Assembly (NCBI RefSeq): GCF_002844195.1
Contig: NZ_PEND01000003.1
Span: forward strand, 1 to 64,000
Direction of reading: 5' to 3'
Length of the DNA: 64,000 nucleotides
Source: Halegenticoccus soli
GTDB taxonomy: Archaea > Halobacteriota > Halobacteria > Halobacteriales > Haloferacaceae
The number at the start of each line of letters is the position of its first letter. The stretch's first letter is position 1. Of this stretch, positions 7,840 to 44,096 are shown piece by piece. A program made the translations under genes and the position numbers. The notes beneath the pieces are model-generated. The model searched no databases and was not told the DNA's origin. It saw only the letters and a program-made list of their open reading frames with translations.

Positions 7840-8343
7840 GTTTGGTAACTAGTAGCAATACAAAGAGTATCACGTATTTATGTGTATCGTCGAAACCGAT
7901 CAGTGCATCGAGCGTTCTCCAGGCGCTGCCAACGGCAGTCGGGAGAGGCTCTGTTCGATCTCGAGCAGGCGAGGGATCTCTCAGTTCGTTTGAGTAACCG
8001 GACGCTGTTCGCTGGCCTTCACCCGTAACCCGAAGGCCAGTAACTCGTGAAGGGGAGAGGACGGATCCGTGCTTGACGTTGTCTCTGTCATTACGCGCCT
8101 ATGTCTGACATCGATACTGACAGGATGGGCGTGATCCACGCGGCGGAGTTGCGGTTCGCAGAACGCCTTGCCAACCGCCCGCACAGGCGACCGCGCTGTA
8201 CCTCCGGTGGTCTGGAGTTTCGAACCCGCCTCGACTCCGCTAGCCGGGAAGATGGTATCCGTTCGACGTACTCGGTCTCACGACGAGGAGAAAACTTGCG
8301 AGCGCCGACGATGTCACCGTGGTTCTTCCGGAGAGACTACCGC
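7840..8343. other. Intergenic region with no supported gene
   Basis: About 500 bases separate the oxidoreductase stop from the symporter unit. The best candidate is a 36-codon frame on minus from ATG 8091 (MTETTSSTDPSSPLHELLAF) ending at 7981, which could extend upstream to 8184. It has no recognisable domain and no clear promoter. The AT-rich part at 7845-7885 likely holds the promoter of the symporter operon. Confidence 0.4.
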
Positions 8344-10011
8344 TTACACGGCCGCAGAAACCCGCGCTTCCGGAACCGTCCCGTCGTCGCTCCAGCCCCG
8401 TTCCGCGTAGTAGGTCGAGAGAGCCTCGTCGAACCCCGGCAGGCCGTAGGGGAGCGTATCGTCCCCGCGGTCGAAGCCGCGTCGGTTGTTGAAGTGACGC
8501 TCGAGATCGACGATCCGTGCACCGACCGCGAGTAAGTCCCCGTAGTCGGCGCCGAAGAGCGCTTCGAGGCGTTCCGGGGTCACGTAACTCCCCGAAAACT
8601 TGCACACGACGCCGCTGTCCTTCACCGCGTTCGCGTTCTCGGCGGCGACGAGGGTCGAAGCCTTTCCCTCTAGTCCCTCGGGAGGGAACGCCTCCTCTTG
8701 GCTCACGAGGGGGTACTCGTAGTCGTAGAACTCAGCGTACATGTGGTCAGCGCCGCGGTTGGCGGTTGCAAACGCCAGTCCTTGACCGTGGAGCGCACGC
8801 CCGTCGTGGGCGGGAAACTCCATACCCTTCACGGTCCAGTTTTCAACGCCCAGTTCATCGGCGATTCGATCGACTCCCTCCGCGAGGAAATCGCCGACGC
8901 CCTCCCGATAGGCGATCTTTTTGACCGTCTCGTGGACCAGGTCCACATTGCCAAATTCGCCTTCCGCTTTCAGGTACGCTGCGACGACGTCGCCACAGGA
9001 GATGGTGTCCATCCCGAGAGAGTCACAGAGTTCGTTCGATTTCATGACGGCAACGACGTCGTCGACAGCCTGGTTCGAGCCGAACGCCATCACCGTCTCG
9101 AACTCCGGACCCTCTGTCTCGATGTTCGCTTCCCCGTCGCGCGTCGGTAGTTTGCAGGCGAACGCGCAGGCGGAGCAGGTACCCTTCCGGTACTTCTTCT
9201 CCTCGACCGCGTCGCCGTTGATTCCCTCGACGCCCTCGAAGGAGCGTTCGGCGAAGTAGCGGGTGGGAAGCGCACGGACCTCGTTCGCGAGGTCGGTTAT
9301 GCTCGCGGTGCCTTGCCGTTTCATGATATGGTCATCGGTGGCGGCTTCGCGATGAACCTCCGTCTGGATAGCCGGAACGTCGATGTCGTGGCTGGCAGCG
9401 CCGTCGAAGGTGATCGCCTTCACGCCCTTTGCACCCAGTACGGCCCCTAACCCGCCTCGGCCGAAAGCGCGGCCGGACGAGGTCACGATGGCGGCGAACC
9501 GGACGCGGTTCTCGCCCGCCGGTCCGATCGCGGCGAGGTGTTCGCTGCCGAACCCTCGTTCTTCGTCGAGAGATGCCTCTACTTCGGGGACGGCGGCTCC
9601 TTCGAGGTCGGGAACGTCCTCGAACTCGACGCCCTCGTCGGTGACGTGGACGACGAGCAGGTCGTCACTCTCGCCCGTAAGCTGGACCGCACCGTAGCCG
9701 GTCGCGGCGAAATTTCTGGAGAGGAAGCCGCCGGCGTTCGAAGAGAGGAGGCCGCCGGTTAACGGCGAGACGCCCGTGCAGTTCATCCGCCCGGTGAAGC
9801 TCATCCGCGAGATCTGCATCGGCCCCGTCGTGAAGAACAGGCTGTTAGTCGGATCGAACGGATCGACTCCGAACGGGATCCGCTCGTGAGCGAGCCGCGT
9901 CGCCACCCCGCGTCCGCCGATGAACGCCTCCAGCACCGCGTCGATATCCTCCAGTTCAGTCTCGCGCGAACCCACGTCGACGGTCAGAAGTGGTCCCGTT
10001 GCGTGGAGCAT
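8344..10011 (-). CDS. Tungsten-dependent aldehyde:ferredoxin oxidoreductase (AOR family)
   Basis: A 555-residue cytosolic enzyme that oxidises aldehydes to acids with ferredoxin as acceptor, using a tungsten-bispterin centre and a [4Fe-4S] cluster. The cluster ligands Cys279-x2-Cys282-x3-Cys286 (CSACAFAC) and the distant Cys470 (SGVVCKFSG) are present. Pterin-binding stretches NAGGFLSRNFAATGYGAVQL (residues 92-111), GPAGENRVRFA and GRGGLGAVLGAKGVKAI also match the family. The length is slightly below the usual 600. It starts 2 bases after the PotA stop, so it belongs to the polyamine importer operon (PotD-PotA-AOR). That placement suggests an aminoaldehyde such as 4-aminobutanal or its gamma-glutamyl form as substrate, which is inference. 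Confidence 0.92.
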   Translation of the reverse strand: MLHATGPLLTVDVGSRETELEDIDAVLEAFIGGRGVATRLAHERIPFGVDPFDPTNSLFFTTGPMQISRMSFTGRMNCTGVSPLTGGLLSSNAGGFLSRNFAATGYGAVQLTGESDDLLVVHVTDEGVEFEDVPDLEGAAVPEVEASLDEERGFGSEHLAAIGPAGENRVRFAAIVTSSGRAFGRGGLGAVLGAKGVKAITFDGAASHDIDVPAIQTEVHREAATDDHIMKRQGTASITDLANEVRALPTRYFAERSFEGVEGINGDAVEEKKYRKGTCSACAFACKLPTRDGEANIETEGPEFETVMAFGSNQAVDDVVAVMKSNELCDSLGMDTISCGDVVAAYLKAEGEFGNVDLVHETVKKIAYREGVGDFLAEGVDRIADELGVENWTVKGMEFPAHDGRALHGQGLAFATANRGADHMYAEFYDYEYPLVSQEEAFPPEGLEGKASTLVAAENANAVKDSGVVCKFSGSYVTPERLEALFGADYGDLLAVGARIVDLERHFNNRRGFDRGDDTLPYGLPGFDEALSTYYAERGWSDDGTVPEARVSAAV

Positions 10012-10013
10012 GG

Positions 10014-11141
10014 TTACTGCTCGATGAGCTCGCAGTCCGAGGGTTCGAAACCGACGACGACCGCTTCCCCCTCCTGAAACTGCGATTCCTGCCGCGTCTT
10101 TTGTCGCTGTGCGACCAGCGTTCGAGTCCCGATATCGACAACGTACTTCGTAGTCGCACCCTTGTAGATGACGTCGTCGACGGTCCCCCGATACCGGTTC
10201 GCCAGCTCGTCACCGCCGCCGGGGCGGGTAAGTGTGACGTTCTCGGGTCGAACCGACACGCCCACCTCGACACCCGGGGGGAAACCGCTGTCGCCGACGG
10301 CGAGCGTCTCCGTGCCCGTGTCGACGCCGAGCCCTTCCTCGGAGCTGGTCGTCACTCCGGTCAGGAGATTCGTTTCGCCGAGGAACGTCGCCACAAACGT
10401 CGTTTCCGGGTGGTCGTACAGCTCTGTGGGCGGGCCGACCTGCTCCAATCTCCCCTCGTTCATCACCGCAATCCGGTCGGACATCGTCATCGCCGCCTCC
10501 TGATCGTGCGTGACGTAGAGGAAGGTGATCCCGAGTTGCTCCTGGATGTCCTTCAGTTCGACCTGCATGCGCTGACGGAGCCCCCGGTCGAGGCTCGCCA
10601 GCGGCTCGTCCAGCAGGAGGACGTCCGGCTCACGAACGATGGCGCGGGCCATGGCGACGCGCTGTTTCTGGCCGCCGGAAAGTTCGCCGATGCTGCGGTC
10701 ACCGTATCCGGGAAGCTCAACGAGTTCGAGTACCTCCGTAACCCGTTCCTCACGCTCGGGCTTCGGGACGTTGTCCATCTCGAGCCCGAACGCTATGTTC
10801 TCTTTGACCGTCATGTGGGGAAAGAGGGCCCACTCCTGGAAGACCATGCTCGTGTTCCGTTTGTTCGCGGTCAGGTCGGTGACGCGCTCGCCGTCGATGA
10901 AGATGTCCCCGTCAGTTGGCGTTTCGAGCCCGCTGACACAGCGCAGCGTCGTCGTTTTCCCGCAGCCGGACGGACCGACCAGCGTGATGAACTCGCCGGG
11001 GCGGATTTCGATGTCGAAGTCTGCCACCGCGGTGACGTCGTCGTACTCTTTGCGTAACCCGCCGATGCGGATGTGACCCGTCTCTTCGGCCGATCTGGAG
11101 GCTGCCGATTCGGCGCTTGCTCCTGTCTGCTCTACGGGCAT
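10014..11141 (-). CDS. potA: Polyamine-type ABC transporter ATP-binding protein (PotA-like)
   Basis: A 375-residue ATPase that drives the PotB-PotC permease. It carries Walker A GPSGCGKT (56-63), Q-loop Gln102, ABC signature LSGGQKQR (154-161), Walker B VLLLDE (174-179) and the switch His212. A C-terminal TOBE region spans about 290-370 (VSVRPENVTL, GTVDDVIYKGATTKYVV). The first 22 residues are a low-complexity extension. It begins 1 base after the PotD stop. The Pot/Fbp/Mal group shares this layout; the polyamine assignment comes from PotD and the two permeases with it. Other cargos of this subfamily (iron, sulfate, sugar) are less likely. Confidence 0.9.
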   Translation of the reverse strand: MPVEQTGASAESAASRSAEETGHIRIGGLRKEYDDVTAVADFDIEIRPGEFITLVGPSGCGKTTTLRCVSGLETPTDGDIFIDGERVTDLTANKRNTSMVFQEWALFPHMTVKENIAFGLEMDNVPKPEREERVTEVLELVELPGYGDRSIGELSGGQKQRVAMARAIVREPDVLLLDEPLASLDRGLRQRMQVELKDIQEQLGITFLYVTHDQEAAMTMSDRIAVMNEGRLEQVGPPTELYDHPETTFVATFLGETNLLTGVTTSSEEGLGVDTGTETLAVGDSGFPPGVEVGVSVRPENVTLTRPGGGDELANRYRGTVDDVIYKGATTKYVVDIGTRTLVAQRQKTRQESQFQEGEAVVVGFEPSDCELIEQ

Positions 11142-11142
11142 A

Positions 11143-12354
11143 CTACAACCCCGCTCGCGCCTTCGCCTCCGACCACATGTCCGTCCATTCGTCCGTGTGT
11201 TCGGAGAACTGGTACGGAATGCACTTCTCGACGATGGTCTCGGCCGCGTCGAAGCCGTTCTGGTTGAACGTGAGCGAGACCTGTTCCTCCTCGGAAAACT
11301 GGTCGTAGGCGTTTTCGTTCACCGGAATCCCCTTGTTGCCGGGTTTCCAGCAGACCGAGTACTGTCCCTCGGGGGTCGTGACGTCGTTGATGAATTCGAC
11401 CGCAAGCTTGCGGTTGTGCGGATTCTTCACCACGCAGGCCCCCTCGGTCCACGCGATGCCGCCCGCCTGCTCAGTGAGCAGCGTCTTCACCCACTTTGCG
11501 CCCTCGTGGTACATCGTGCTGAAGTAGTAATTCCCGATGGGCGCAAGCCAAATGTCCTCGTTCTGCATCGCCTGTCGCGTGTCGCTCCCGCCCCCGTAGA
11601 CGGCCTCGACGTTCTCGAACATTTGGATGAGCTTCTCTTTGATGTCCGCGAGTTCGTCTTCGCTCTGCTGGTACGGCTCGTACCCGAGCCGAATAGCGAT
11701 AGCCGGGATGACCCACGTCGGCCAGTCGACAGTGCCCACTTTCCCTTTGAATTCGCCGCTCTCGCCGCCGGTCCAGAACAGTTCGTACCCGGTTTCGGTC
11801 GCCATCTCCTCGTCCACTTCGTTCGTGTTGATGGTGAGCGAGTCCCAACCCCACCGGGTCGGAACGCCGTACATCTCGTCCTCCCAGCTGAACGGCTCGA
11901 ACGGATACTGGTAGCGCTCGATGAAATTATCCATCTCCCTGAAGTCCTCAGGGTCGAGCGCTTCGATAGTGCCCGCGCGTGCGTGGCGCTGGACCCACGT
12001 GTTGTCGATGACCATCACGTCGTACTCGCTGGTCCCGCCGCCCTGGAGGATGTTGAACGCCTCCGTGTCGGAGCCGATGAGCTTCACGTTCACGTCTACC
12101 CCGCGGTCTTTGTACTTTCCGAGCAGGTCGTCGTGATCGTATCCCTCCCACGTGAGGATGTTGAGTACTTGTTCGTCGCCGCTCTCCTCGGTCGTCCCAC
12201 CCCCGCCGCTCGCTCCTACGTCTCGCTTTCCCATACAACCGGTTAGCCCTGCGACGCTCGCCGCGCCCGCTACCTTCAGGAAGGCTCGCCGTCCGTCGGT
12301 TGGCTCGGCGCTGTATCTCCGTCCGTGACCGTCATCCGTGCTCTCATTTGCCAT
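11143..12354 (-). CDS. potD: Periplasmic-type spermidine/putrescine-binding lipoprotein (PotD-like)
   Basis: A 403-residue substrate-binding protein. RRAFLK at 22-27 followed by AGAASVAGLTGC makes a Tat signal with a lipobox; Cys40 would be lipidated and the protein anchored outside the membrane. A glycine-rich linker follows. The mature part begins LNILTWEGYDHDDLLGKYKD, the PotD/PotF start, and continues with YDVMVIDNTWVQRHARAGTI and WGWDSLTINTNEV. In PotD proteins several Trp/Asp/Glu side chains bind the amine; aromatic residues are plentiful here. The start ATG 12354 lies about 30 bases after TATATTAATC, so leaderless or nearly so. Whether the ligand is putrescine, spermidine or agmatine cannot be read. 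Confidence 0.9.
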   Translation of the reverse strand: MANESTDDGHGRRYSAEPTDGRRAFLKVAGAASVAGLTGCMGKRDVGASGGGGTTEESGDEQVLNILTWEGYDHDDLLGKYKDRGVDVNVKLIGSDTEAFNILQGGGTSEYDVMVIDNTWVQRHARAGTIEALDPEDFREMDNFIERYQYPFEPFSWEDEMYGVPTRWGWDSLTINTNEVDEEMATETGYELFWTGGESGEFKGKVGTVDWPTWVIPAIAIRLGYEPYQQSEDELADIKEKLIQMFENVEAVYGGGSDTRQAMQNEDIWLAPIGNYYFSTMYHEGAKWVKTLLTEQAGGIAWTEGACVVKNPHNRKLAVEFINDVTTPEGQYSVCWKPGNKGIPVNENAYDQFSEEEQVSLTFNQNGFDAAETIVEKCIPYQFSEHTDEWTDMWSEAKARAGL

Positions 12355-12529
12355 CGTATGAACTGACAGATTACCCTCCCGATTAATATATCTTCTTATA
12401 AATTACCTTACCTAATGGGACAGAATATCATCAAAGTCCGATTCAATTGAACGTATTAAGGAGTACTTGCCAATCGGCAGAATCAAAGACAAGATTGAAG
12501 AGGGTCCGTGCGAAGGACTGTGTTAGACC
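12355..12529. promoter_or_regulatory. Divergent promoter region of the pot genes with palindrome
   Basis: Minus-strand TATA candidates lie at 12381-12390 (TATATTAATC) and 12393-12402. A perfect ten-base palindrome TTCAATTGAA occupies 12442-12451, midway between the two start codons, and is a candidate operator acting on both directions. On the plus side the AT-rich ACGTATTAAG at 12451-12460 could be the potB promoter. Confidence 0.5.
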
Positions 12530-13435
12530 ATGGCAACAAGTGACGGGAAACGCTCGGCGCTGGGTGAGCGCTTCGAGAGAGCGGTCGACCGCTCTCCGCT
12601 CCCGGCCGGCGTCGTCGTAACAAGCGGCCCGGTTCTCCTCTTGCAGCTGTTGTTCTTCGTCGGTCCGCTGTTCATCATGGTGACGATTGCGACCATGGAG
12701 ATGGAGAACCTCGTCCTGATTCCCGACTACAGTCTCGACAACTTCGTCGAGGTTTTCACCGGATTCGTTCCCCGGACGGCGTTCACCAACACCGTACTCA
12801 TCTCGGTGCTCACTACGCTGTCGGCGATCGTCATTGCGTACCCGATCGCCTACTTCATCGCCCGCAGGGGCGGGTCCCACAAGAACCAGCTTCTGATACT
12901 GGTGATGATCCCGTGGTGGACAAATTTTATCGTTCGCGTCTACGGGTGGCGGCTCATCCTCGGATCGCGCGGGGTGGTCAACTCCGCGCTCATCTACGCC
13001 GGTTTCATCGATCAGCCCATCGATTGGTTGTTGAACACGAAGTTTTCCATTTGGCTCGGGCTGACCTACCTCTGGCTGCCGTTCATGATACTCCCGCTCT
13101 ACACCAGTTTGGAGAAGATGGACCAGTCGCTCATCGATGCCGCCTACGATCTCGGCGCCTCCCGCTGGGTCGTGTTCCGGCGTATCATCCTTCCGCTCTC
13201 GTTCTCCGGCCTGGTCGGGGGCACCATGTTCGTGTTCATCTTCAGCATGGGATCGTACATCGTCCCTTCGATGCTCGGGGGCGGCACGACGTTCGTCGGC
13301 CCGCTGATCGACTATCAGTTCGGCTTCGGCGGCGACTGGCCTATGGGCGCAGCCATCGCGAGCGTCCTGATGCTCATCGTGATGGTGGTGCTACGCGCCC
13401 TGATGCGCCACGTCGAGATCGAGGAGATGATCTGA
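12530..13435 (+). CDS. potB: Polyamine-type ABC transporter permease (PotB-like)
   Basis: A 301-residue membrane protein with six predicted helices. The cytoplasmic EAA loop reads DAAYDLGASRWVVFRRIILP, the contact site for the ATPase. Other conserved parts are NTVLISVLTTLSAIVIAYPI and MIPWWTNFIVRVYGW, typical of PotB. ATG 12530 is the first in-frame ATG. The next gene begins 1 base after its stop, so potB and potC are cotranscribed and diverge from potD-potA-AOR. Together the four proteins form a complete importer. Confidence 0.92.
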   Translation: MATSDGKRSALGERFERAVDRSPLPAGVVVTSGPVLLLQLLFFVGPLFIMVTIATMEMENLVLIPDYSLDNFVEVFTGFVPRTAFTNTVLISVLTTLSAIVIAYPIAYFIARRGGSHKNQLLILVMIPWWTNFIVRVYGWRLILGSRGVVNSALIYAGFIDQPIDWLLNTKFSIWLGLTYLWLPFMILPLYTSLEKMDQSLIDAAYDLGASRWVVFRRIILPLSFSGLVGGTMFVFIFSMGSYIVPSMLGGGTTFVGPLIDYQFGFGGDWPMGAAIASVLMLIVMVVLRALMRHVEIEEMI

Positions 13436-13436
13436 C

Positions 13437-14294
13437 ATGAGCGGCGGAACCGACGTTACGACCGGCGACCGCCCGTCGGAGATGACCGAAACTGGCCTCC
13501 CGCTCCGCCGCCTCCGGGACGTTCTCGACACCTACTGGATCCACGTCTGGACTCTGCTCGTGTTCGCATTCCTCTATTTCCCTATCGTCGTGCTCGTCGT
13601 CTTCTCCTTCGAGAAAGGAACCTACTCGACGCTTCCCTGGAGCGGCTTCACAGTGCAATGGTACGCGGAGATGGTCACCGACCAGGTGCTCATCGATTCG
13701 GCGACCAACAGCGCCATCGTCGCCGTGTTCGTCACTGTTATCGGCACAACTCTCGGGACGCTCGGTGCCATCAGCCTCGTCCGCTACGAGTTCAAACTCA
13801 AGAGCGTCTACCGCTCGCTCATCATCGCACCGATGACCGTCCCCGGACTCATCCTCGGCGTCGGTCTCCTGATGTGGTTCAAATACCTCGGCTTCAGTAC
13901 CGACCTGAAGACGGTGATGATCGGGCAGCTCGTCTTCGTCACGCCGTTCGTCCTTATCACCGTTAGCGCCAGCCTCAGCGGCTTCGACCCGCATCTCGAA
14001 GAGGCGGCACGCGACCTCGGGGCGAGCCGCTGGCAGACGTACCGCCGCGTCACCATCCCGATGCTCATGCCCGGCATCGTGAGCGGAGCGATGTTCGCCT
14101 TCGCACTTTCGTTCGACGACTTCCTCATCGCCTTCTTTACCAGCGGGGTGAAGAACACGCTCCCGGTCTACCTGTGGTCGCGCATGAACCACGGCATCAG
14201 TCCGGTCATCAACGCGATCTCCACCGTCGTGTTGCTGTTCAGCATCGTCCTCATCGTGGGAAGCGAACTGCTCCGACGACGCAATGAATTGTAG
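13437..14294 (+). CDS. potC: Polyamine-type ABC transporter permease (PotC-like)
   Basis: A 285-residue permease with six helices and the EAA loop EEAARDLGASRWQTYRRVTI. The N-terminal 25 residues are hydrophilic and longer than in bacterial PotC. NHGISPVINAISTVVLLFSI near the C-terminus matches the PotC group. It pairs with the preceding permease. The aminotransferase that follows begins 109 bases after the stop and may be part of the same transcript. Confidence 0.92.
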   Translation: MSGGTDVTTGDRPSEMTETGLPLRRLRDVLDTYWIHVWTLLVFAFLYFPIVVLVVFSFEKGTYSTLPWSGFTVQWYAEMVTDQVLIDSATNSAIVAVFVTVIGTTLGTLGAISLVRYEFKLKSVYRSLIIAPMTVPGLILGVGLLMWFKYLGFSTDLKTVMIGQLVFVTPFVLITVSASLSGFDPHLEEAARDLGASRWQTYRRVTIPMLMPGIVSGAMFAFALSFDDFLIAFFTSGVKNTLPVYLWSRMNHGISPVINAISTVVLLFSIVLIVGSELLRRRNEL

Positions 14295-21971: not shown

Positions 21972-22493
21972 TCAGTCGGCCTGACTGCCGACGTTGGTCC
22001 GCATCTCCTCGGACATGTTCGAGATGACCTTCGGGTCCGTTTTCAGCTCTTTCATGACGAACTGCGACGAGGTCTCGTTGACCCCGTCGATGCTCACGAT
22101 CTCGTCGATGAGGTCGTTCATCTGCTCGCGGTTCTGGACGCGAGAGATCACCACGAAATCGATATCGCCCATCGTGTAATAGACCTGTTCGACCCCCTTT
22201 ACCGCGGAGAGGCGCTCACCGATGTCCTCGGCGTATCCGCTTTCGTGGGTGACCGATACGTTCGTGATCACCATCATATTGAGCCCGAACGCGAGCGGAT
22301 CGAGCGTCGCGGTCACGGCCTTGATCACACCGCGCTCGCGGTGCTTTTTCAATCGGTAGTGGATAGCCGACTTCGAGAGGCCGAGTTCGTCCGCCAGTTC
22401 TTCGAGACTCTTGTCGAAGTCGTTCTCGACGTACTCGAGCAACTGGAGGTCTTTTTCGTCGAAGCTGACGTCTCTAGATTCCGAAGAGCTCAT
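21972..22493 (-). CDS. Lrp/AsnC family transcriptional regulator
   Basis: A 173-residue regulator. The N-terminal helix-turn-helix (about 15-55) contains DEKDLQLLEYVENDFDKSLE, LADELGLSKSAIHYRLKKHR and the following ERGVIKAVTATLDPLAFGLN. The C-terminal RAM domain (about 75-160) follows with VKGVEQVYYTMGDIDFVVIS and DGVNETSSQFVMKELK. Such proteins form octameric dimers and respond to amino acids. ATG 22493 is chosen because TTAAATA lies about 29 bases upstream; the ATG at 22517 lies inside that box and would put the start before transcription. It sits between the PutP-like symporter operon and a class III aminotransferase, both likely targets. Confidence 0.93.
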   Translation of the reverse strand: MSSSESRDVSFDEKDLQLLEYVENDFDKSLEELADELGLSKSAIHYRLKKHRERGVIKAVTATLDPLAFGLNMMVITNVSVTHESGYAEDIGERLSAVKGVEQVYYTMGDIDFVVISRVQNREQMNDLIDEIVSIDGVNETSSQFVMKELKTDPKVISNMSEEMRTNVGSQAD

Positions 22494-22517
22494 CACGACT
22501 CCGTTGTCTTCGAACAT

Positions 22518-22528
22518 TATTTAATCTA
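22518..22528 (-). promoter_or_regulatory. TATA box deciding the start of the Lrp gene
   Basis: The minus strand AGATTAAATAA is centred about 30 bases before ATG 22493. It overlaps the upstream in-frame ATG at 22517, which therefore cannot be used on a leaderless message. Confidence 0.55.
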
Positions 22529-22767
22529 CTGCCAAACAGCTCGACCGATATTCGAACGAGTTCGTCGGCAGCACGGGTGTTGGAGACATTTTCCGAGTTC
22601 GCGTTCTCTGCGGACCGGAGATCCCTGTCGCGTTAACCGAGAGCACCGGAACGGGGATTCGACGTACCGTCGGGATCGTTGTAGCGTCTCGCCCGAAACG
22701 AGGGCGGTATTGCCCTTTCCCCAGAAACTGACCGCGAGAGCGGTGGGCGGATAGAATGCGGGCGAAG

Positions 22768-24117
22768 TCACGCGTCCATTGCCGCATCAGATACGTCGAG
22801 TGCAGCGTCGAGGGCGTCGACCGCCTCGTCGATCTCCGCTTCCGTAATCGTCAACGGAGGCGCGATGATGAGCGTGTTGATCATGTTGGCGACGTACGCA
22901 CCCTGCTCGTAGGCCTCCGCAGCGACCTCGTCGACAGTCGTCGATCCTTTCGAGATCTTGTGTTCCCGACGACCGAACGGCTCCCGCTCGTCTTTTCTCT
23001 TCGTGAGTTCGATACCGCGGAACAGCCCGACGCCCCGGGTATCACCGACGCTCGGGTGGTCCGTTTCGAGTTCGACTAACCGCTCGCCGAGGTACGAGCC
23101 GACTTCGCGGGCGTGGTCGATCAGGTCGTCCTCCTGATACGCTTCGATTGCAGCGAGGCCCGCGGCGACCGCGACGGGGTGTCCCGAGTAGGTGTGGCCG
23201 TGGCAGAACATTTCGTCCTCGAAGTGGGCGGCGATCTCGTCCGTCACGATCGTCGCACCTAGCGGCGCGTAAGCGCCGGTGAGACCCTTCGCCATCGTCA
23301 CGATATCGGGCGTGACGTCGAACACGTCACAGCCGAACCACTCCCCCGTCCGACCGAATCCGGACATAACTTCGTCGCAGATCAACAAAGCGCCGTGTTC
23401 GTGCGCGAGTTCCTTTAATCGCGGCAGGTACTCGTCCGGCGGAACGAGAATCCCGTTCGATCCGACGATCGGTTCGACGAGGATAGCCGCGACGGTGTCT
23501 CCTTCGAGCATCAGCATCTCCTCGATGTAGTCGAGGCTCTGCATCGGCTCTAGCGTCGAACCGTACGCGTACGGATCCGGGGCTTTGATCATCCCAGGAA
23601 TACCCGGTTCGGCCATCAACCGACGGGGATCTCCCGTGGCGCTGATGGACCCGTAGGTCGCACCGTGATAGGACCGGTACCTGGACACAATCTTCTGTTT
23701 TCCCGTGTAGAAGCGGGCGATCTTGATCGCGGCCTCGACCGCTTCCGTCCCGCTGGTCGAAAAAAAAGTCTTGGAGAGATTTCCGGGGGTGACTTCCGCG
23801 AGTTTTTCTCCGAGGCGGGCCCGCGCTTCGGTGGTAAACCCCGGCGCAAAATACGCCCCCTCGCGCGCCTGTGAGGCGATCGCCTCCGCGACCGCCTCAG
23901 CCGAATGTCCCAGGTTCGAGCACATGAGCTGCCCTGAGAGGTCGATGCACTCGTTTCCGGCCGCATCCGTGAAACGAACGCCTTCAGCGCGGACGATCTG
24001 TGTCGGGCTTACCTCGCTCTGGTACGACCACGTGCCGAACACGAATTCGCGGTCCAGACTCTCGATTTCGTTGAGATTGTCGTCCTGTTCGATAGCGGTC
24101 TCCTTCTTGCTAGACAT
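22768..24117 (-). CDS. PLP-dependent class III aminotransferase (beta-alanine/omega-amino acid type)
   Basis: A 449-residue enzyme with Asp248 (LLICDEVMSGFGR) and Schiff-base Lys277 (VTMAKGLTGAYAPLG). STSGTEAVEAAIKIAR binds phosphate and RYRSYHGATYGSISATGDPR is conserved. ATG 24117 gives the normal N-terminus; the frame runs upstream to 24180 without family similarity. It diverges from a methylmalonate-semialdehyde dehydrogenase-like gene. The pair would convert beta-alanine or 3-aminoisobutyrate to a semialdehyde and then to an acyl-CoA. The Lrp gene is next to it. It is clearly a different paralogue from the aminotransferase at 17983-19302. Confidence 0.9.
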   Translation of the reverse strand: MSSKKETAIEQDDNLNEIESLDREFVFGTWSYQSEVSPTQIVRAEGVRFTDAAGNECIDLSGQLMCSNLGHSAEAVAEAIASQAREGAYFAPGFTTEARARLGEKLAEVTPGNLSKTFFSTSGTEAVEAAIKIARFYTGKQKIVSRYRSYHGATYGSISATGDPRRLMAEPGIPGMIKAPDPYAYGSTLEPMQSLDYIEEMLMLEGDTVAAILVEPIVGSNGILVPPDEYLPRLKELAHEHGALLICDEVMSGFGRTGEWFGCDVFDVTPDIVTMAKGLTGAYAPLGATIVTDEIAAHFEDEMFCHGHTYSGHPVAVAAGLAAIEAYQEDDLIDHAREVGSYLGERLVELETDHPSVGDTRGVGLFRGIELTKRKDEREPFGRREHKISKGSTTVDEVAAEAYEQGAYVANMINTLIIAPPLTITEAEIDEAVDALDAALDVSDAAMDA

Positions 24118-24252
24118 ACGCTCCCAGATGCTCCCTCTTTCGTGATTAATCTTTGGTCTACGAGCGAATTCTTGATACAAAATTTACGCCAACGGCTTAC
24201 TAAGAGGAGAGTGTTCGAACTCATCGAGAGATACTTGAACCGCGACCTAAAG

Positions 24253-24258
24253 TTTATT
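24253..24258 (+). promoter_or_regulatory. TATA box of the semialdehyde dehydrogenase gene
   Basis: TTTATT is centred 27 bases before ATG 24283, in the 165-base gap between divergent genes. Confidence 0.6.
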
Positions 24259-24282
24259 GTACGGTGATGTAGATACCCACCC

Positions 24283-25761
24283 ATGGGATCGACAGAGACC
24301 CAGTCCGAGCACGAACCGGCCAGGAATTACGTAAACGGCGGTTGGCGGACGCCCGCCGAGGAGGGGCTCGATATTATCAACCCCGCGACGGGCGCCCACC
24401 TGAGTACCGTTCCGTTCACATCGCGCGAGGAAGTCGACGAGGTCGTCGCGACGGCACGGGACGCGTTCGAAGACTGGTCGCGGCGCCCGGTCGAAGAACG
24501 GATCCAGCCCCTGTTCAGATTCAAGCAACTGCTCGAAGAACGGCAGGACGAGATCGCGCGCACTCTCGTGCAGGATCACGGGAAGACCCTCAAAGAGGCC
24601 CGCGGTGAACTTCGTCGGGGAATCGAGAACGTCGAAGTCGCGTGCGGCATTCCGACGACGATGCAGGCGGGGCATCTACCCAACGCGGCGCCCGCGATCG
24701 ACGAAACGGCGGTCCGAAAGCCGCTCGGCGTCTTCGCTGCGATCACCCCGTTCAACTTCCCGGGGATGATCCCCCTCTGGTTCCTTCCGTACGCGGTTGC
24801 GACCGGGAATTCGTTCGTCCTCAAACCGAGCGAGCAGGATCCGCTCACCGCACAGCGGTTGTTCGAGCTGATCGACGAAGCCGGGTTCCCGGACGGCGTG
24901 ATCAACCTGATCAACGGCGGCGTCGACACGGTCAACGCCCTCATCGAACACGATGACGTCGCGGGGATCTCGTTCGTCGGGAGCACCCCGGTCGCAGAAC
25001 TCATCTACGAGAAGGCGGCTGCGAACGGGAAGCGCGTCCAGGCGCAGGGCGGCGCGAAGAATCACATTATCGTAACGGAAAGCGCCGACCTCGAGTTCGC
25101 CGCGGAGAAAACCGTGAGCTCGGCCTGCGCGTGCGCGGGTGAGCGGTGCTTGGCGAACGACGTCGTCCTCGTCGAGGAATCCGTGTACGGCGAATTTGCC
25201 GATCTCGTCGTTACGATCGCCGAGGACCAGACCGTCGGAAACGGCCTCGACGAGGACACCGATATCGGCGCTCTCATCAGCCGCGAGCACGAACAGCGCG
25301 TTCGCAACTACATTCAAACCGGGATCGAAGAGGGAGCGACGCTCCTCCGAGACGGGCGTGACGTGACCGTTGCGGGCCACGAAGGCGGAAATTTCCTCGG
25401 ACCGACGGTCTTCGGCGACGTGACCGAGGACATGGTCATCTCTCGAGAAGAGATCTTCGGGCCGGTCCTCGGACTCTCGCCGGTGGCCGATCTCGACTCC
25501 GCGATCGAACGCCTCAACAACAGCAAATTCGGAAACGCTGCGAGCCTGTTCACCACGAGCGGCGTCGATGCAAACGCGTTCAAACACGAGGCCGAAGCCG
25601 GCAATCTCGGCGTCAACGTGGGGACGGTCGGTCCGATGGCGTTCTTCCACTTCGGTGGCCGCAAAGCGTCGTTCTTCGGCGACCTCCACGCGCAGGGCGA
25701 AGACATGATCCACTTTTACACCGACAAAACGATCTACATCGAACGGTGGCCGGACGCCTGA
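24283..25761 (+). CDS. mmsA: CoA-acylating (methyl)malonate-semialdehyde dehydrogenase (MmsA/IolA-like)
   Basis: A 492-residue ALDH-fold enzyme that converts methylmalonate or malonate semialdehyde plus CoA and NAD to propionyl- or acetyl-CoA. The catalytic Cys289 lies in GERCLANDVVL, the Asn158 in TPFNFPG. The general-base Glu of ordinary ALDHs is replaced in VQAQGGAKNHIIV, as in all CoA-acylating MMSDHs. IGALISREHEQRV and the C-terminal FFGDLHAQGEDMIHFYTDKT are specific to this family. Its partner is the divergent aminotransferase. Besides valine or beta-alanine breakdown it could serve inositol catabolism (IolA), of interest because of the sugar genes after 43 kb. Confidence 0.93.
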   Translation: MGSTETQSEHEPARNYVNGGWRTPAEEGLDIINPATGAHLSTVPFTSREEVDEVVATARDAFEDWSRRPVEERIQPLFRFKQLLEERQDEIARTLVQDHGKTLKEARGELRRGIENVEVACGIPTTMQAGHLPNAAPAIDETAVRKPLGVFAAITPFNFPGMIPLWFLPYAVATGNSFVLKPSEQDPLTAQRLFELIDEAGFPDGVINLINGGVDTVNALIEHDDVAGISFVGSTPVAELIYEKAAANGKRVQAQGGAKNHIIVTESADLEFAAEKTVSSACACAGERCLANDVVLVEESVYGEFADLVVTIAEDQTVGNGLDEDTDIGALISREHEQRVRNYIQTGIEEGATLLRDGRDVTVAGHEGGNFLGPTVFGDVTEDMVISREEIFGPVLGLSPVADLDSAIERLNNSKFGNAASLFTTSGVDANAFKHEAEAGNLGVNVGTVGPMAFFHFGGRKASFFGDLHAQGEDMIHFYTDKTIYIERWPDA

Positions 25762-37450: not shown

Positions 37451-38830
37451 CTAGGCGCTCCAATCGGGACGTTCCCGGTGGATATACTCGCCGTAACCCG
37501 GGTCGGTGACGATCTCCCCCTCGTCGGCGACGAGTTGACCGCGGACGAACGTCTTCCTCACCCGGCCAGTGACTTCCCGCCCCTCGTAGATTGAGAAGTC
37601 GGCGTTCGACGCGTTGTCTTCGGCGGTGATGGTGTACCTCTCATCGGGGTCGAACAGGACGATGTCGGCGTCGGTACCGGGGTCGAGAGTGCCCTTGTTC
37701 GGCATGCCGAAGATGTGCGCCGGATTTCGACTCATGACGCGGACGAGGAAGGGATACGAGAACCCTCGTTCGTTCACCGCCTCGTCGTGGAACACCGGCA
37801 ACGACACCTGTAGCGCGTTCGCGCCGAACGTGGAGTCCCACCAGTTTTCTACCTCCTTCGACTCGCGCTTGTAGCCGCAGTGATCCGTCGACACAACGTC
37901 GAGCGTGCCGTCCGACAGATGCGTGAACATCGCCTCAATATCGTCCTGGGTCCGAATAGGTGGCGCTATCATGGGGAGGTTCCCGAGTTCCTCGAACACT
38001 TCGTCCGTAAGCGTCGTATAGTGGGTACACGTCTCGGCGCGGATCTTCGATCCGTCCTCGCGGAAGCGCTTTATCACTGCCGCCGCCTTCCGGCACGACG
38101 TGTGGATGCCGTAGTACTTCGCCCCCGTCTGCTGAGCCATCCGAATGGCGTCGTCGGCCGCCATCGCCTCGGCGTAGTCCGGGCGAGACTGTGGGTAGTC
38201 CGTCGGATCACCTCGGCCCTCCCGCTTGAATCGCTCGGTGAGCATGTCGGTGATCGAAGAGTCTTCCGTGTGGTAGACGCCGACTGCGTCGAGTTCGGCT
38301 ATCTCCTCCATCACCTGGTGCATAAACCCGTTCGAAAGCCCGTGTTCGTAGGCTGTGAACATCTTGAACGAGGGGACGCCCGCCTTGATCGCGTCAGAAA
38401 GCTCGTCCAGGACCGCGGGATCCTCCCGGGTGATGGCCCCGTGGAAGCTGTAATCGACGTGAGCGTCCTCGGCCTTGTTTCGTTTACGTTCGATCCCTTC
38501 CATCAGCGTCCCTTCCTCCGAGAAGATCGAAAGGTCGCCTTCCCACGCTTGCCACGCGAAGTCGATGTACGAGGTTACGCCCCCGAGCGCCGCCGCCGCC
38601 GAGGCCGTCTCGTGCGTATCGATGGAGAACATGTCGTCGATGTGGACGTGCGGGTCGATGACGCCGGGCATAACCAGGAGTCCCGACGCGTCAATGCGCT
38701 CTTCGGCGTCGGGCATTGACGATGGCGTGCCGACGCCGACTATCTTCCCGTCGTCGATGGCAAGGTCGGCCTCGAAGATGTTTGTCTCCGTCACTATCGT
38801 CCCATTCACGATGATGGTATCGATTAGCAC
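37451..38830 (-). CDS. Dihydropyrimidinase/hydantoinase (cyclic amidase)
   Basis: A 459-residue metal-dependent cyclic amidase. His61 and His63 (DPHVHID), the carbamylated Lys156 (PSFKMFTAY), His187 (VYHTED), His243 (GIHTSC) and Asp316 (STDHCGY) form the two-zinc site. The C-terminal composite strand (GRVRKTFVRGQLVADEG) is present. The GTG start at 38830 is 28 bases after TTTTTACTTAATC. Family members open dihydrouracil, hydantoin or allantoin rings. With an N-carbamoyl hydrolase and an NCS1 permease nearby, hydantoins or dihydropyrimidines are the likely substrates. It is separated by 112 bases from the next minus-strand gene and has its own promoter. Confidence 0.92.
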   Translation of the reverse strand: MLIDTIIVNGTIVTETNIFEADLAIDDGKIVGVGTPSSMPDAEERIDASGLLVMPGVIDPHVHIDDMFSIDTHETASAAAALGGVTSYIDFAWQAWEGDLSIFSEEGTLMEGIERKRNKAEDAHVDYSFHGAITREDPAVLDELSDAIKAGVPSFKMFTAYEHGLSNGFMHQVMEEIAELDAVGVYHTEDSSITDMLTERFKREGRGDPTDYPQSRPDYAEAMAADDAIRMAQQTGAKYYGIHTSCRKAAAVIKRFREDGSKIRAETCTHYTTLTDEVFEELGNLPMIAPPIRTQDDIEAMFTHLSDGTLDVVSTDHCGYKRESKEVENWWDSTFGANALQVSLPVFHDEAVNERGFSYPFLVRVMSRNPAHIFGMPNKGTLDPGTDADIVLFDPDERYTITAEDNASNADFSIYEGREVTGRVRKTFVRGQLVADEGEIVTDPGYGEYIHRERPDWSA

Positions 38831-38942: not shown

Positions 38943-39992
38943 CTACGTCTCGGCTTTGGCCTCGGCCAGCGCGTCGATGACGTCCTCCATGTTGTCCGTC
39001 AGTGGATAGACCACCGGTTCGGTACAGCCGGCCGCACAGTAATCCCGGATGCGTTCGATCACGTCATCGCGGGTCCCCGCTGCGACGATATTAGTGACGA
39101 CGTCGTCGCTGACGTACTCGGAAGCCCGTTTGATGTCGGCGGCGGTGGCCGGCCAACCGCCCAGCTCCGCCTTGACCTTCTCGGCCCGTTCGTCGTCGAT
39201 GCCGCACGCCTTCGTGATGTGCGGTTGCTGGCCGATATACTGCGTGGCGAGGTTGCGCGCTTGGTCGATGGCATAGTCGACATCCTCGTCCATCGATACT
39301 GCGATGAGCTGTGGCCGGTCGACGTCTTCCAAAGATCCGTCCTGCTTCTCGACTCCCTCTTTCAGTTTCTCCAGTCCTTTGAGGTTGTGCTCGGGAGGGA
39401 TAAGATAGTTCATGAATATCCCCCCGGCGATACCGTTTCCAACGAGTTCGCCAGTGAGTTTGTGCATCGTCTCGCCGGTCGCACCGACGTATATTGGTAC
39501 GTCACGCGGTTCGGCGTTGGAGCGGACGAGATCCAGTTCGATGTCCTCGACACGGAGCGTGTCACCCTCATAGGTAACGTTCTCGAGGTCGAGCAGGCGC
39601 TTAGTCACGGTGCAGTACTCCCACATCCGTCGAAGTGGCCGCTCACGATCAATACCGACTTTCGAAGCCAGCGGATCCCACCACGCGCCGATACCGAGTT
39701 TCATCCGCCCTCCCGAAAGCTCGTGGAGCGTCGAGAACGTCTGGGCCATCAGCGCCACGTTTCGCGTGTAACAGTTCGTAACGCCCGGGGCGATATCTAT
39801 CTCGTCGGTCACCTGCGTGTACGCGCCCATCAGGGTCATGGCGTCCCGGACCAGTCGAGACTCGCCCTGCCACACCGAGTCGAGACCCGTCTCTTCCGCG
39901 TACTGGGCGGATCTCACCTCGTCTTCGACGTGCGATCTCTCCCAGTTCCAGATACCGGCGCGCGTGAACTCACGGTCGAAATTGGCGTTCAC
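38943..39992 (-). CDS. LLM-class F420/flavin-dependent oxidoreductase (methylene-H4MPT reductase-like)
   Basis: A 349-residue TIM-barrel oxidoreductase of the luciferase-like superfamily. It begins REFTRAGIWNWERSHVEDEV, then GLDSVWQGESRLVRDAMTLM, GVTNCYTRNVALMAQTFSTL and GGRMKLGIGAWW, which match the F420-dependent Mer-like branch. Later PIYVGATGETMHKLTGELVG is the cofactor-side loop. Haloarchaea make F420, so a hydride transfer from F420H2 is likely. The GTG start at 39992 lies 6 bases after the carbamoyl hydrolase stop, so the two are in one operon. An enzyme of this class is not part of textbook hydantoin or pyrimidine reduction; its step here is open. Confidence 0.88.
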   Translation of the reverse strand: MNANFDREFTRAGIWNWERSHVEDEVRSAQYAEETGLDSVWQGESRLVRDAMTLMGAYTQVTDEIDIAPGVTNCYTRNVALMAQTFSTLHELSGGRMKLGIGAWWDPLASKVGIDRERPLRRMWEYCTVTKRLLDLENVTYEGDTLRVEDIELDLVRSNAEPRDVPIYVGATGETMHKLTGELVGNGIAGGIFMNYLIPPEHNLKGLEKLKEGVEKQDGSLEDVDRPQLIAVSMDEDVDYAIDQARNLATQYIGQQPHITKACGIDDERAEKVKAELGGWPATAADIKRASEYVSDDVVTNIVAAGTRDDVIERIRDYCAAGCTEPVVYPLTDNMEDVIDALAEAKAET

Positions 39993-39998
39993 GAGTTA

Positions 39999-41231
39999 TC
40001 ACTCCGTTGTGAGTTTGAAGGCTGCGTTCGCAAGCGTATTCGCCGCAGCGTAGCAGTCCGACCAGCTCGTGTACTCATCCTCTGTGTGACTCTTTCCGTT
40101 CTCCGAGACGGAGAACACCATCCCGGTGTCCATCACCTTGTGCGTGTGCGTTGCGTCGTGACCGGCACCACTGAAGATCCGCATACCATCGTAGCTGAGC
40201 TGCTCCGCAGCGCGCGCTACGGCGTCAACGCATCTATCCGCGAAGTGAACGGGATCGACCCACATACGGTCTTCGTAGTCCCAGTCGACCCCCTCGCGCT
40301 CGGCGGCCCACTCTGCCTCTGCGAGGACTTGGGCCCGCGCCTCCTCGATCACGTCGGCGTCAGGATCACGAAAGCCCCAAGTAAACGTCACCTGTTCAGG
40401 GATGGTGTTGATAGAATTGGGCTGAGAATCGATATAGCCGGTAGTTCCGACTGTGCGTTCACCCAGGGTGCTCGGAATCCGTCGGATCTGGGTGATGACG
40501 TCGGCGGCTGCCACGAGTGCGTCACTCCGGTAGTGCATCGGGGTCGGACCGGAGTGGTCGGCTTCGCCGTGGAAGGTGATCGCCCCCCACGTGAACCCCA
40601 CGATACCCGTGACGATACCCACGTCTGCGTCGTTCTCCTCCAGGTACGGGCCCTGTTCGACGTGGAGTTCGAGATACGAGTCGTACTCTCTTTGCGGTTC
40701 CGCAGGCGTCTCGCCCTTGTAGTCGATCCGCTCGAGCTCCTCCTCGAAGACGTCCCCGCTCGCGTCCGTCTTAGCGTACTCCTTTTCGATGTCGTGTTCG
40801 CCTGCCCACACGCCGGACCCCTGCATGGCAGGCTGAAACCGAGAGCCCTCCTCGTTCGTCCAGTTGACGATCTCGATCGGACGTTCCGTCTCGATACTCT
40901 CGTCGTTTAGCGTTCGGACCAGTTCGAGCGCCGCGACGACGCCCATCGCACCATCGTAGATCCCGCCGTAGGGTTGGGAATCCAAGTGCGAGCCTACGAG
41001 GACGGTGCCGGCGTCGGGATCGGTTCCCTCCCTGTACCCGAACATGTTGCCGAACTCGTCTACGGTGATCTCGAGCCCTTCGTTCTTCATCTGGGTCGCG
41101 AACCAGTCACGGATCTGCTTGTCTTCGTCAGAGAGGGCAAGTCGGTGTAGGCCGCCACCATCCGTGCCCCCGATTTCCGCTTGCTCTTTCATCGTGTCGA
41201 CGAACCGTTCTCTGTCTACCTCGACCAGCAT
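39999..41231 (-). CDS. N-carbamoyl amino acid hydrolase/beta-ureidopropionase type (M20, HyuC/AmaB)
   Basis: A 410-residue di-metal amidohydrolase that removes carbamoyl groups from ring-opened hydantoins or ureidopropionate. His82 (GSHLDSQPYGG), bridging Asp93 (YDGAMGV), Glu127-Glu128 (WTNEEGSRF) and the His of LELHVEQGP are clear, as are GAGHDA and the C-terminal SHTEDEYTSW. Length and motifs are normal. ATG 41231 is about 25 bases after TTTTAGTATTTTC. It leads the operon with the LLM enzyme. The product would be an amino acid (alpha, or beta-alanine) plus ammonia and carbon dioxide. Confidence 0.92.
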   Translation of the reverse strand: MLVEVDRERFVDTMKEQAEIGGTDGGGLHRLALSDEDKQIRDWFATQMKNEGLEITVDEFGNMFGYREGTDPDAGTVLVGSHLDSQPYGGIYDGAMGVVAALELVRTLNDESIETERPIEIVNWTNEEGSRFQPAMQGSGVWAGEHDIEKEYAKTDASGDVFEEELERIDYKGETPAEPQREYDSYLELHVEQGPYLEENDADVGIVTGIVGFTWGAITFHGEADHSGPTPMHYRSDALVAAADVITQIRRIPSTLGERTVGTTGYIDSQPNSINTIPEQVTFTWGFRDPDADVIEEARAQVLAEAEWAAEREGVDWDYEDRMWVDPVHFADRCVDAVARAAEQLSYDGMRIFSGAGHDATHTHKVMDTGMVFSVSENGKSHTEDEYTSWSDCYAAANTLANAAFKLTTE

Positions 41232-41568
41232 AATCCACTACTTGTGAAGAAAATACTAAAAAACTTTCTTCCGTTGAAATCATATTCGAAGTACAATGAG
41301 AGCGAATGTATATTGTAGAACTGCCATCTGGTTCGACATGAGATACCGAGGTGGCCTTCGACCCTGCCGATCAGCAGCCAGAACCCCTCGTGCGTCGGCG
41401 ATGCGAGGTATACTATCGAGTACTCCGACGACCACTCTTCGTTGGACTCGTTTTTTCGGCACCCCTCCCTCTTAACCGAGTTTCCAACGTATTTATCCAA
41501 CCATCCAAAAGAATTAAGCAAGAGCCGATATATGTTGATTGTTGTCCCATGTCACGGAGGACAGAGGA
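41232..41568. promoter_or_regulatory. Divergent control region between hydrolase operon and permease
   Basis: Leftward: TTTTAGTATTTTC at 41252-41262 serves the hydrolase. Rightward: GATATATG at 41527-41534 is a TATA box for the permease, giving a short leader. A Shine-Dalgarno GGAGG at 41556-41560 lies 8 bases before ATG 41569, so unlike most genes here the permease uses a leadered message. The middle 250 bases hold no supported gene. Confidence 0.6.
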
Positions 41569-42930
41569 ATGAGTGATCGCACCAATCTCGAAGGTTTAGA
41601 ACCGATCTCAAAGGACGATCGGACGATGGGGCTCGTCCACTACATTCCGGTGTGGTGGTCGTCTCTCATCATCGTCCAGGCGTTCGCCGTCGCGTTCTTC
41701 GCGGTGTATCCACACGGGAACCTCAACCTCCTCCAAGCAGGAATCGCGATCGGAATCGGTTCTCTGATCGTGACTGCCGGATTCATCGCGAATGGTTTTC
41801 CCGGATATGAAAAGGGGATTCCGTTCGTGGTTCAAACACGGTCGGCGTTCGGAACCAAAGGCTCCGTCATCCCCAACTATCTGCGGATCATCCCGGCCAT
41901 TGGATGGCTCGGAATCGGAAACTGGATCGGAGCCCTCGCCCTTGAGAGCATCACCAGTACGCTTTGGGGATTCGGGAACGTCTGGGTGTACTTCGTACTG
42001 TTCCTCCTCCTTAATCTTCTGTTAGCCCTGAACGGGGTGACCTCGATAAAGTGGTTCGATTCCCTGGCCGCCGGCGTCCTCGCGATTCTGCTCGGGTACA
42101 CGATATACACGGTCCTGACCACGCAGACGATCCCGGCGGACGTGATCAACTATCCCGGATCGTGGGGGATGCAGTTTTTCGCCACCATCACCGCAACCGT
42201 CGGATTTGTCGTGACGGGCGCGCTAAATGCCTCCGATCTCAGTCGGCATCTGAAGAACCCGGGTAGCAGTCGAAATCAGGTGCTCGGTCATCTCCTCGGC
42301 ATCGCGCCGCCGATGTTGTTCATGTTGGTCGTCGGACTCGTGTTCGGCGTATCAACCGGAAATCCGAATCCGGTCGACGCGATCATGATCGTCGCCCCGA
42401 ACCCGCTCATGGGTAGTCTGATGCTCCTTTTCGTTCTCGGTGCCCAGATCTCGACCAATCTGACGTTGAACATTCTCCCCCCGACGCACGTGTTTCAGGA
42501 TTCTCTCGGACTGAGTTGGAAACAGGGCGTCGTTCTCACTAGCGCCCTCTCCGTCATCTCGTTTCCGTGGGTGCTATTCACGAGTGATATCTTCTATACC
42601 TTCATCAACACCTACGCGGCCTTTCTGGGCCCTGCACTTGGCGTACTTCTCGCTGACTACTGGATCATCCGGGACCGAGACACCGATATCGCCGCTCTCT
42701 ATCGGACGGATCGGGAGTCGAACTTCTGGTTCGTCAACGGGTACTCTGTCACAGCCATCTTCAGCGTCCTCGTGGGCGCCGCGGTGAGTCTCCCCTTCCT
42801 GAGCGTTTCGCTTTTGATCGGACTGCCGGTTGGGTTCGGCATTTACATCGCTCTCCGACGGGCGGATCTCGATGCGACCATCCGGTCGTACCTCTTGGAC
42901 GGGGACAAAACTGCCTCCGGTGCAGACTGA
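41569..42930 (+). CDS. NCS1 family nucleobase/hydantoin/allantoin permease
   Basis: A 453-residue membrane carrier with 12 predicted helices. The N-terminal PISKDDRTMGLVHYIPVWWS, GFPGYEKGIPFVVQTRSAFG, then LRIIPAIGWLGIGNWIGALA and GFVVTGALNASDLSRHLKNP follow the Mhp1/CodB pattern, including the substrate-binding Trp and Asn positions. ATG 41569 is fixed by the SD site before it. It faces away from the N-carbamoyl hydrolase operon and probably supplies its substrate. Hydantoin, uracil, cytosine and allantoin are all possible. The IclR gene lies 404 bases downstream. Confidence 0.9.
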   Translation: MSDRTNLEGLEPISKDDRTMGLVHYIPVWWSSLIIVQAFAVAFFAVYPHGNLNLLQAGIAIGIGSLIVTAGFIANGFPGYEKGIPFVVQTRSAFGTKGSVIPNYLRIIPAIGWLGIGNWIGALALESITSTLWGFGNVWVYFVLFLLLNLLLALNGVTSIKWFDSLAAGVLAILLGYTIYTVLTTQTIPADVINYPGSWGMQFFATITATVGFVVTGALNASDLSRHLKNPGSSRNQVLGHLLGIAPPMLFMLVVGLVFGVSTGNPNPVDAIMIVAPNPLMGSLMLLFVLGAQISTNLTLNILPPTHVFQDSLGLSWKQGVVLTSALSVISFPWVLFTSDIFYTFINTYAAFLGPALGVLLADYWIIRDRDTDIAALYRTDRESNFWFVNGYSVTAIFSVLVGAAVSLPFLSVSLLIGLPVGFGIYIALRRADLDATIRSYLLDGDKTASGAD

Positions 42931-43334: not shown

Positions 43335-44096
43335 ATGAAGGATGAAACGACTGTGATCCAGGCGTCGATCACGACGCTTCGTGTCGCAGAGGCGCTCAAA
43401 CACCTCGAGGGTGCCAGAGTCACCGAACTCGCCGCGCACCTTGATCTGCCGAAAAGCACGATTCACTACCACCTCCAAACACTGATGAAGGCCGAGTTCA
43501 TCGTCGCTGACGGCGACGAGTACCGCATCGGTCTCCGCTTTCTCGACTTCGGCGAGTTCGTCCGGGACAGAGTCGAGTTGCTCGGGTCGGCCGAATCGGA
43601 ATTGCGGAAACTCGCCGAGGAAACGGGGGAGATCGCGAGTCTAATGGTCGAAGAGCACGGAAGGGGAGTCTACGTCGCGAGAGAGGAGAGCGAAAGCGCG
43701 GTGAGAACGAGTTTCCACACGGGCAAACGAGTTCTGCTCAGTCAGACGGCGGCGGGAAAAGCAATCCTCGCGTTCACCCCACACGAACGCGTCGAGGAGA
43801 TCCTCGACCGGCACGGCCTCGAGGGCAAGACCCGAAACACGATCACCGAGCGAAACTACCTCGTCGAGGTGCTCGACGAGATACGTGAGCGAGGGTACGC
43901 CTACGACGACGAAGAGTGGCACCGCGGCCTCCGTTGTGTCGCCGCACCGATCAGGGATATGGACGACCGAGCCGTCGGCGCCGTCAGCGTGGCCGCGCCC
44001 CTCAGCCGCACTCGTGGAGAGCGCTACAAGCGGGATCTCCCCGAGGCCGTTCTGAGCACCGCCAACGTCATCGAGCTGAACATGCAGTACTCGTAA
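43335..44096 (+). CDS. IclR family transcriptional regulator
   Basis: A 253-residue repressor/activator. The winged helix-turn-helix (about 10-65) contains VTELAAHLDLPKSTIHYHLQ and TLMKAEFIVADGDEYRIGLR. The IclR effector domain (about 80-250) contains GEIASLMVEEHGRGVYVARE, LLSQTAAGKAILAFTPHERV and RGLRCVAAPIRDMDDRAVGA followed by VSVAAPLSR. It is 86 bases before an isomerase-like gene and probably controls the sugar genes that follow, with an inverted repeat before its own promoter. Effector unknown. Confidence 0.93.
   Translation: MKDETTVIQASITTLRVAEALKHLEGARVTELAAHLDLPKSTIHYHLQTLMKAEFIVADGDEYRIGLRFLDFGEFVRDRVELLGSAESELRKLAEETGEIASLMVEEHGRGVYVAREESESAVRTSFHTGKRVLLSQTAAGKAILAFTPHERVEEILDRHGLEGKTRNTITERNYLVEVLDEIRERGYAYDDEEWHRGLRCVAAPIRDMDDRAVGAVSVAAPLSRTRGERYKRDLPEAVLSTANVIELNMQYS

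Follow-up and report, generated by a model that had tools for sequence, protein, structure and literature searches.

What is an LLM-class oxidoreductase doing among genes for the hydrolysis of hydantoin- or pyrimidine-type rings? This question is raised by a haloarchaeal locus in the window (the whole stretch of 64,000 nucleotides that was analysed), for which the sequence-only reading placed the LLM gene 6 nt behind an N-carbamoyl hydrolase gene, next to a cyclic amidase and an NCS1 permease, and proposed that uracil or a similar ring is reduced with F420H2 before it is opened. The ORF coordinates confirm the spacing (39993-39998, both genes on the - strand) as well as both neighbours, the permease being divergent (Table 1). 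As to function, the proposal is the best-supported reading, a prediction which we hold at a probability of about 0.6 on the grounds of gene linkage, phylogeny, predicted fold and the lack of a PreA-type protein: the window LLM is probably an F420H2-dependent uracil/thymine reductase that replaces PydA in what would be a novel version of the reductive pyrimidine pathway. We infer F420 as the cofactor, reduction as the direction and, from the pathway genes, uracil/thymine as the substrate. Among named relatives, the closest is Halegenticoccus (Haloferacaceae), with 96% identity in the LLM.

Table 1. Genes of the window assigned to, or lying beside, the proposed pathway
Feature	Position	Strand	Length and model matches
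Lrp/AsnC regulator of the aminotransferase/MMSDH module	21972..22517	-	PF01037, PF13412
Class III omega-aminotransferase, proposed beta-alanine/beta-aminoisobutyrate transaminase (PydD role)	22768..24180	-	NF004718 465 (cut-off 472), other class III aminotransferase models
CoA-acylating (methyl)malonate-semialdehyde dehydrogenase (MMSDH)	24283..25761	+	TIGR01722 507.7 > 448.5
Cyclic amidase, proposed dihydropyrimidinase (PydB role)	37451..38830	-	PF01979; TIGR02033 341 bits (cut-off 393)
LLM-class oxidoreductase, proposed F420H2-dependent uracil/thymine (dihydropyrimidine-forming) reductase	38943..39992	-	349 aa; PF00296 180.6 bits
N-carbamoyl amino acid hydrolase, proposed beta-ureidopropionase (PydC role)	39999..41231	-	410 aa; TIGR01879 403.2 > 204
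NCS1 nucleobase permease	41539..42930	+	PF02133 189.5 bits; TIGR00800 177 (below cut-off 353)
IclR-type regulator, after the NCS1 permease	43335..44096	+	PF01614, PF09339

Because the LLM, the amidase and the permease all score under curated equivalog cut-offs, their exact substrates are unreadable from the models, which weakens the case. Three genes of the proposed pathway that the sequence-only reading did not include, for the Lrp regulator, the class III aminotransferase and MMSDH, lie inside the window at 21972-25761, about 12-13 kb away from the LLM operon, the latter two being divergent from each other. At that distance these two enzymes could instead be users of polyamine-derived beta-alanine, a point against the proposed pathway. 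As orthologs of this module are found near the LLM and amidase in many relatives, the window has candidate genes for every step from the permease through to acyl-CoA. In the proposed scheme, the permease would bring the base into the cell, and the LLM, with F420H2 supplied by NADPH:F420 reductase, would hydrogenate C5=C6 of uracil and/or thymine to give dihydrouracil/dihydrothymine, a step otherwise catalysed by the Fe-S flavoenzyme PydA/PreTA. The cyclic amidase would then open the ring, the N-carbamoyl hydrolase would release NH3, CO2 and beta-alanine or beta-aminoisobutyrate, and the aminotransferase together with MMSDH would carry these products to acetyl-CoA or propionyl-CoA.

The neighbourhood of the LLM was compared in 25 haloarchaeal loci with an LLM at least 69% identical (clade A), with neighbour matches counted within 20 kb, or less where the flanks were shorter. 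The N-carbamoyl hydrolase was found in 22 of the 25 loci (immediately adjacent in 19), the cyclic amidase in 17, orthologs of the aminotransferase and of Lrp in 13 each and MMSDH in 12, these counts not being independent events since some of the loci are closely related to one another. Strand and gene order are rearranged between loci, and the linkage of LLM, hydrolase and amidase exceeds chance. XDH, SsnA, UacY and PALP, searched for within the same 20 kb, were found in 0/25 loci. The recurrence of hydrolase, amidase, aminotransferase and MMSDH near the LLM, combined with the absence of XDH and SsnA, supports the F420H2-reductase reading.

Expression data from Haloferax volcanii bear on this linkage as well. 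According to PMC6801745, in medium that contains uracil the genes of a cluster on pHV4, encoding a luciferase-family protein (HVO_A0295A) together with amaB2, dpyS, mmsA and gabT6, are upregulated by log2 4.6-5.7 when alanine replaces ammonium; the passages on this cluster propose a uracil-to-beta-alanine flux from these data and name no ring reductase. The co-induction argues for the F420H2-reductase reading, the tie of HVO_A0295A to the clade-A LLM being one of published gene order. It also tells against the idea that the LLM is a passenger with an unrelated substrate, or an F420-reducing dehydrogenase acting on a downstream intermediate. That idea would agree with two loci (G187, G362) in which the LLM gene stands apart from the pathway set on its contig, and with the many cyclic amidase/hydrolase pairs that have no LLM, but it fits poorly with a hydrolase that stays adjacent in 19 of 25 rearranged loci, and we consider it highly improbable.

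The clade-A clusters also hold genes that might point to another ring. Hydantoinase A/B (HyuA/HyuB) occurs in 11 of the 25 loci, a hydantoin-type racemase in 12 and isochorismatase in some, and therefore the substrate range may exceed uracil. One could thus suppose that the LLM is an F420-dependent enzyme for some other cyclic ureide or amide (a hydantoin-type ring, a dihydropyrimidine analogue or a related heterocycle) as part of a wider island for ring hydrolysis, given that HyuA/HyuB, an Asp/Glu/hydantoin racemase and an ABC transporter stand beside the LLM in G020, G028, G166, G247, G398, G416 and others, with isochorismatase too in several HyuA/HyuB relatives. However, hydantoins lead to alpha-amino acids, for which the aminotransferase/MMSDH pair would be unneeded, and yet this pair directly adjoins the LLM in G241 and G384, which themselves carry HyuA/HyuB. 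Moreover, HyuA/B is absent from the compared flanks of the window locus and of the other NCS1/NCS2a loci. On balance, we find a non-pyrimidine ureide or amide unlikely as the substrate of the window LLM.

The two hydrolytic enzymes of the operon were compared with curated models and solved structures. For the cyclic amidase, the D-hydantoinase/dihydropyrimidinase model TIGR02033 is the top match, though below its cut-off, and the closest solved structures are likewise D-hydantoinases/dihydropyrimidinases. The clade-A amidase carries the motif SFKMFTAY, with K156 and, five residues past it, Y161, which we take to be the carboxylated lysine and the substrate tyrosine of D-hydantoinases/dihydropyrimidinases; the corresponding motif in the amidase of clade B (see below) is ELKAFTADP. 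The hydrolase is placed at the level of the hydantoinase/carbamoylase family (TIGR01879), and among its PDB relatives N-carbamoyl-beta-alanine amidohydrolase (292 bits) and beta-alanine synthase (245) outscore allantoate amidohydrolase (184), as do N-carbamoyl-L-amino-acid hydrolases among the solved structures.

If the proposed pathway operates, its ring-reduction step calls for an enzyme. The sequence-only reading had pointed to a dihydropyrimidine dehydrogenase gene elsewhere as something that might serve the operon instead. With E. coli PreA as the query (E 1e-30) no match was found in the organism's own genome, whose only strong and complete DHO_dh match is a PyrD-like protein, two further matches being short and partial; among 391 Halobacteria the same query gave only three weak matches (31-32% identity). 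The late steps of the Pyd pathway are present, MMSDH above its cut-off and the class III aminotransferase at family level, and for the PydA/PreA ring reductase, of which no copy was found in this genome, we propose the LLM as the substitute. The two would share the reaction and the pathway position while belonging to unrelated families, PydA/PreTA having a DHO_dh fold with FMN and Fe-S and the LLM a barrel of its own class. As for the cofactor, the genome encodes CofD (383 > 257) and NADPH:F420 reductase (npdG, 257 > 150), which, together with the F420 operons of sister genes and a predicted fold nearest to Mer (both described below), suggests that F420 is used.

A phylogeny, which the sequence-only reading had proposed as a check, places the window LLM on the side of the Mer-type F420 enzymes and apart from RutA. 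Clade A forms one branch (96/98) beside clade B and bacterial sequences (96/94), and all of these are joined at 100/100; Mer is nearest to this family, with an uncertain join (92/40) and long branches, and RutA and SsuD fall outside, far off. The AlphaFold2 model of the window LLM (pLDDT 92.5, pTM 0.91) predicts the fold of F420-binding luciferase-like hydride transferases: the top 22 matches of this model in a PDB fold search were F420-dependent Mer, Adf and Fgd, with Mer first (TM 0.85-0.92 at 2.2-2.3 A for the best entries), followed by Adf and Fgd. The F420-operon neighbours of the sister genes lend indirect support to the predicted F420 binding and hydride transfer by the LLM.

Is the window LLM, then, simply a Mer? 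The two share, besides the nearest structures, a conserved glycine-rich core and a G-V motif after the third strand, but identity is 26%, the Mer models score far under their cut-offs (TIGR03555 143.8 vs 348.7, NF002619 168 vs 276), the conserved catalytic Glu of Mer is replaced by W15 and the pathway context is unrelated, so this identification was rejected.

RutA is the other obvious comparison, as it shares with the window LLM both the PF00296 superfamily and a pyrimidine pathway, and the host, like haloarchaea in general, is presumably aerobic, all of which would suit an FMN/O2-dependent monooxygenase. Against such a monooxygenase stand the distance of RutA and SsuD in the tree and the fold rank of RutA (47, TM 0.68). 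RutA cleaves the ring in an O2-dependent manner without a cyclic amidase, and its product needs no dihydropyrimidinase; furthermore, F420 operons containing sister genes occur in Anaerolineae, a group that includes anaerobes. We therefore give a RutA-like role hardly any credence.

The sister clade shows what the same scaffold may do elsewhere. In the eight haloarchaeal loci of clade B, which act as a control for the linkage seen in clade A, an SsnA-like amidohydrolase, PALP and a different cyclic amidase (HYDB) are each found in 8/8, UacY-like and the hydrolase each in 7/8, and aminotransferase and MMSDH in none. Beside the LLM in 52 bacterial sister loci, mostly from Chloroflexota, we found cofC in 40, cofD in 38, npdG in 37, cofE in 35 and SsnA in 28. 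In one of them, L036, cofC, cofD, cofE, npdG and SsnA each score above the curated cut-off and the LLM directly follows cofC.

The gene arrangements of these loci deserve a description of their own. The L036 operon (5598-13895) reads ssnA-npdG-cofE-cofD-cofC-LLM-inorganic pyrophosphatase-xdh, and similar operons occur in the Chloroflexota loci L031, L039, L050, L066 and more, so that F420 biosynthesis and a purine-ring pathway are encoded together. Haloarchaeal loci, such as L173:1259-21986 (Haloarcula marismortui pHMA411), L026, L027, L029, L030, L032, L033 and L035, hold an apparently complete reductive urate pathway, with XDH (in most), D-aminoacylase (UacY-like), HyuA-like and SsnA-like amidohydrolases, PALP (YgeX-like) and carbamoyl hydrolase; the clade-B LLM stands there in the place of YgfK/UacX.

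An anaerobic reductive urate pathway was characterised in E. coli by Li et al. 2025 (PMC12507026), who also made the untested prediction that Chloroflexota use a luciferase-family, F420-dependent yanthine reductase acting analogously to PydA; archaea are unmentioned in the text. Linked through phylum, PF00296, SsnA neighbourhood and F420, this putative yanthine reductase very probably belongs to the sister clade, in one family with clade A (100/100). The proposed chemistry is the same, namely hydride reduction of a uracil-type ring followed by opening by an amidohydrolase, and this analogy adds support to the F420H2-reductase reading. Clade A differs in being archaeal, in lacking XDH/SsnA/UacY/PALP and in its linkage to aminotransferase and MMSDH.

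It might be asked whether the window LLM is itself a purine (yanthine/2,8-dioxopurine) reductase, since it is 46-53% identical to the urate-cluster clade and residues around positions 41-49, 100-109 and 251-258 are invariant in both. Apart from the missing urate-pathway genes, this is opposed by consistent differences near the predicted active site, where W15/N16/W17/E18 and C74/Y75 of clade A face Y/L/Q/D and N/W in the sister clade. These residues lie next to strand 1 and to the G-V motif that follows strand 3, and the differences are compatible with different substrates on one scaffold, the active site being located from the predicted fold. In addition, both versions coexist in Haladaptatus halobius (L022, L026). 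A purine substrate for clade A is thus very unlikely. An allantoin/urate reading was also tested and set aside.

We tentatively extend the proposal, with a confidence somewhat short of even, to a single family of F420H2-dependent nucleobase reductases that may replace PydA/YgfK-type Fe-S flavoenzymes, clade A for uracil/thymine in haloarchaea and the sister clade for yanthine in haloarchaea, Actinomycetota and Chloroflexota, nucleobase dearomatisation possibly being a main physiological use of F420 there. The role of F420 in haloarchaea has been called enigmatic, only one reaction that depends on F420 having been reported (PMC8305020), and a 2021 review describes its role in halophiles as undetermined and leaves uracil and purines unmentioned (PMC8498797). 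If the uracil/thymine reading is true, the clade-A family would fill two gaps, an F420 job in haloarchaea and the ring reductase of haloarchaeal uracil catabolism, and would provide an F420-dependent counterpart to the NAD(P)H-dependent and ferredoxin-dependent (PMC7332683) forms of PydA, as well as a hint of how one scaffold got tuned to pyrimidine and purine rings. Since genetics exist for H. volcanii, the proposal is testable there. Our search of the open-access literature on F420 and dihydropyrimidine dehydrogenase/dihydrouracil found no F420-dependent pyrimidine catabolic enzyme. The putative F420/FMN oxidoreductase SSGG-03002/NpsU reduces uracil C5=C6 in mureidomycin/napsamycin, according to genetics and NMR, in vitro assays having failed (PMC10714638); compared by the described reaction, it resembles our candidate in being tied to uracil C5=C6 reduction and differs in serving antibiotic tailoring in Streptomyces.

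Several further observations concern the clusters themselves. A strict co-occurrence of cyclic amidase and LLM failed among the 391 Halobacteria genomes: 80 have a close cyclic amidase, a clade-A LLM is present in only 18, and close amidase/hydrolase pairs occur in genomes without it, which counts against the F420H2-reductase reading. An aldehyde-ferredoxin-oxidoreductase-family (AFOR) gene is present in 6 of 10 examined clusters without a clade-A LLM, in several of them near an aminotransferase, and might serve semialdehyde oxidation or be another ring reductase. Haloarchaeal examples are L223, L224, L225, L228 and L229, which combine the same amidase/hydrolase pair and NCS2 permeases, often with an aminotransferase too, with an AFOR-family gene but lack an LLM in the vicinity. 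A thermosome/cpn60-family paralog (PF00118) lies within the ABC-transporter/amidase cluster in 10 of the 25 clade-A loci (L172:11039-12790, and also G020, G028, G166, G247, G274, G345, G398, G416 and L018). Finally, positions 4910-29387 of the window are likely a polyamine/amino-acid catabolic stretch, holding a histone-deacetylase-family protein, AFOR, an ABC transporter, a glutamine-synthetase-like protein and several class III aminotransferases and aldehyde dehydrogenases.
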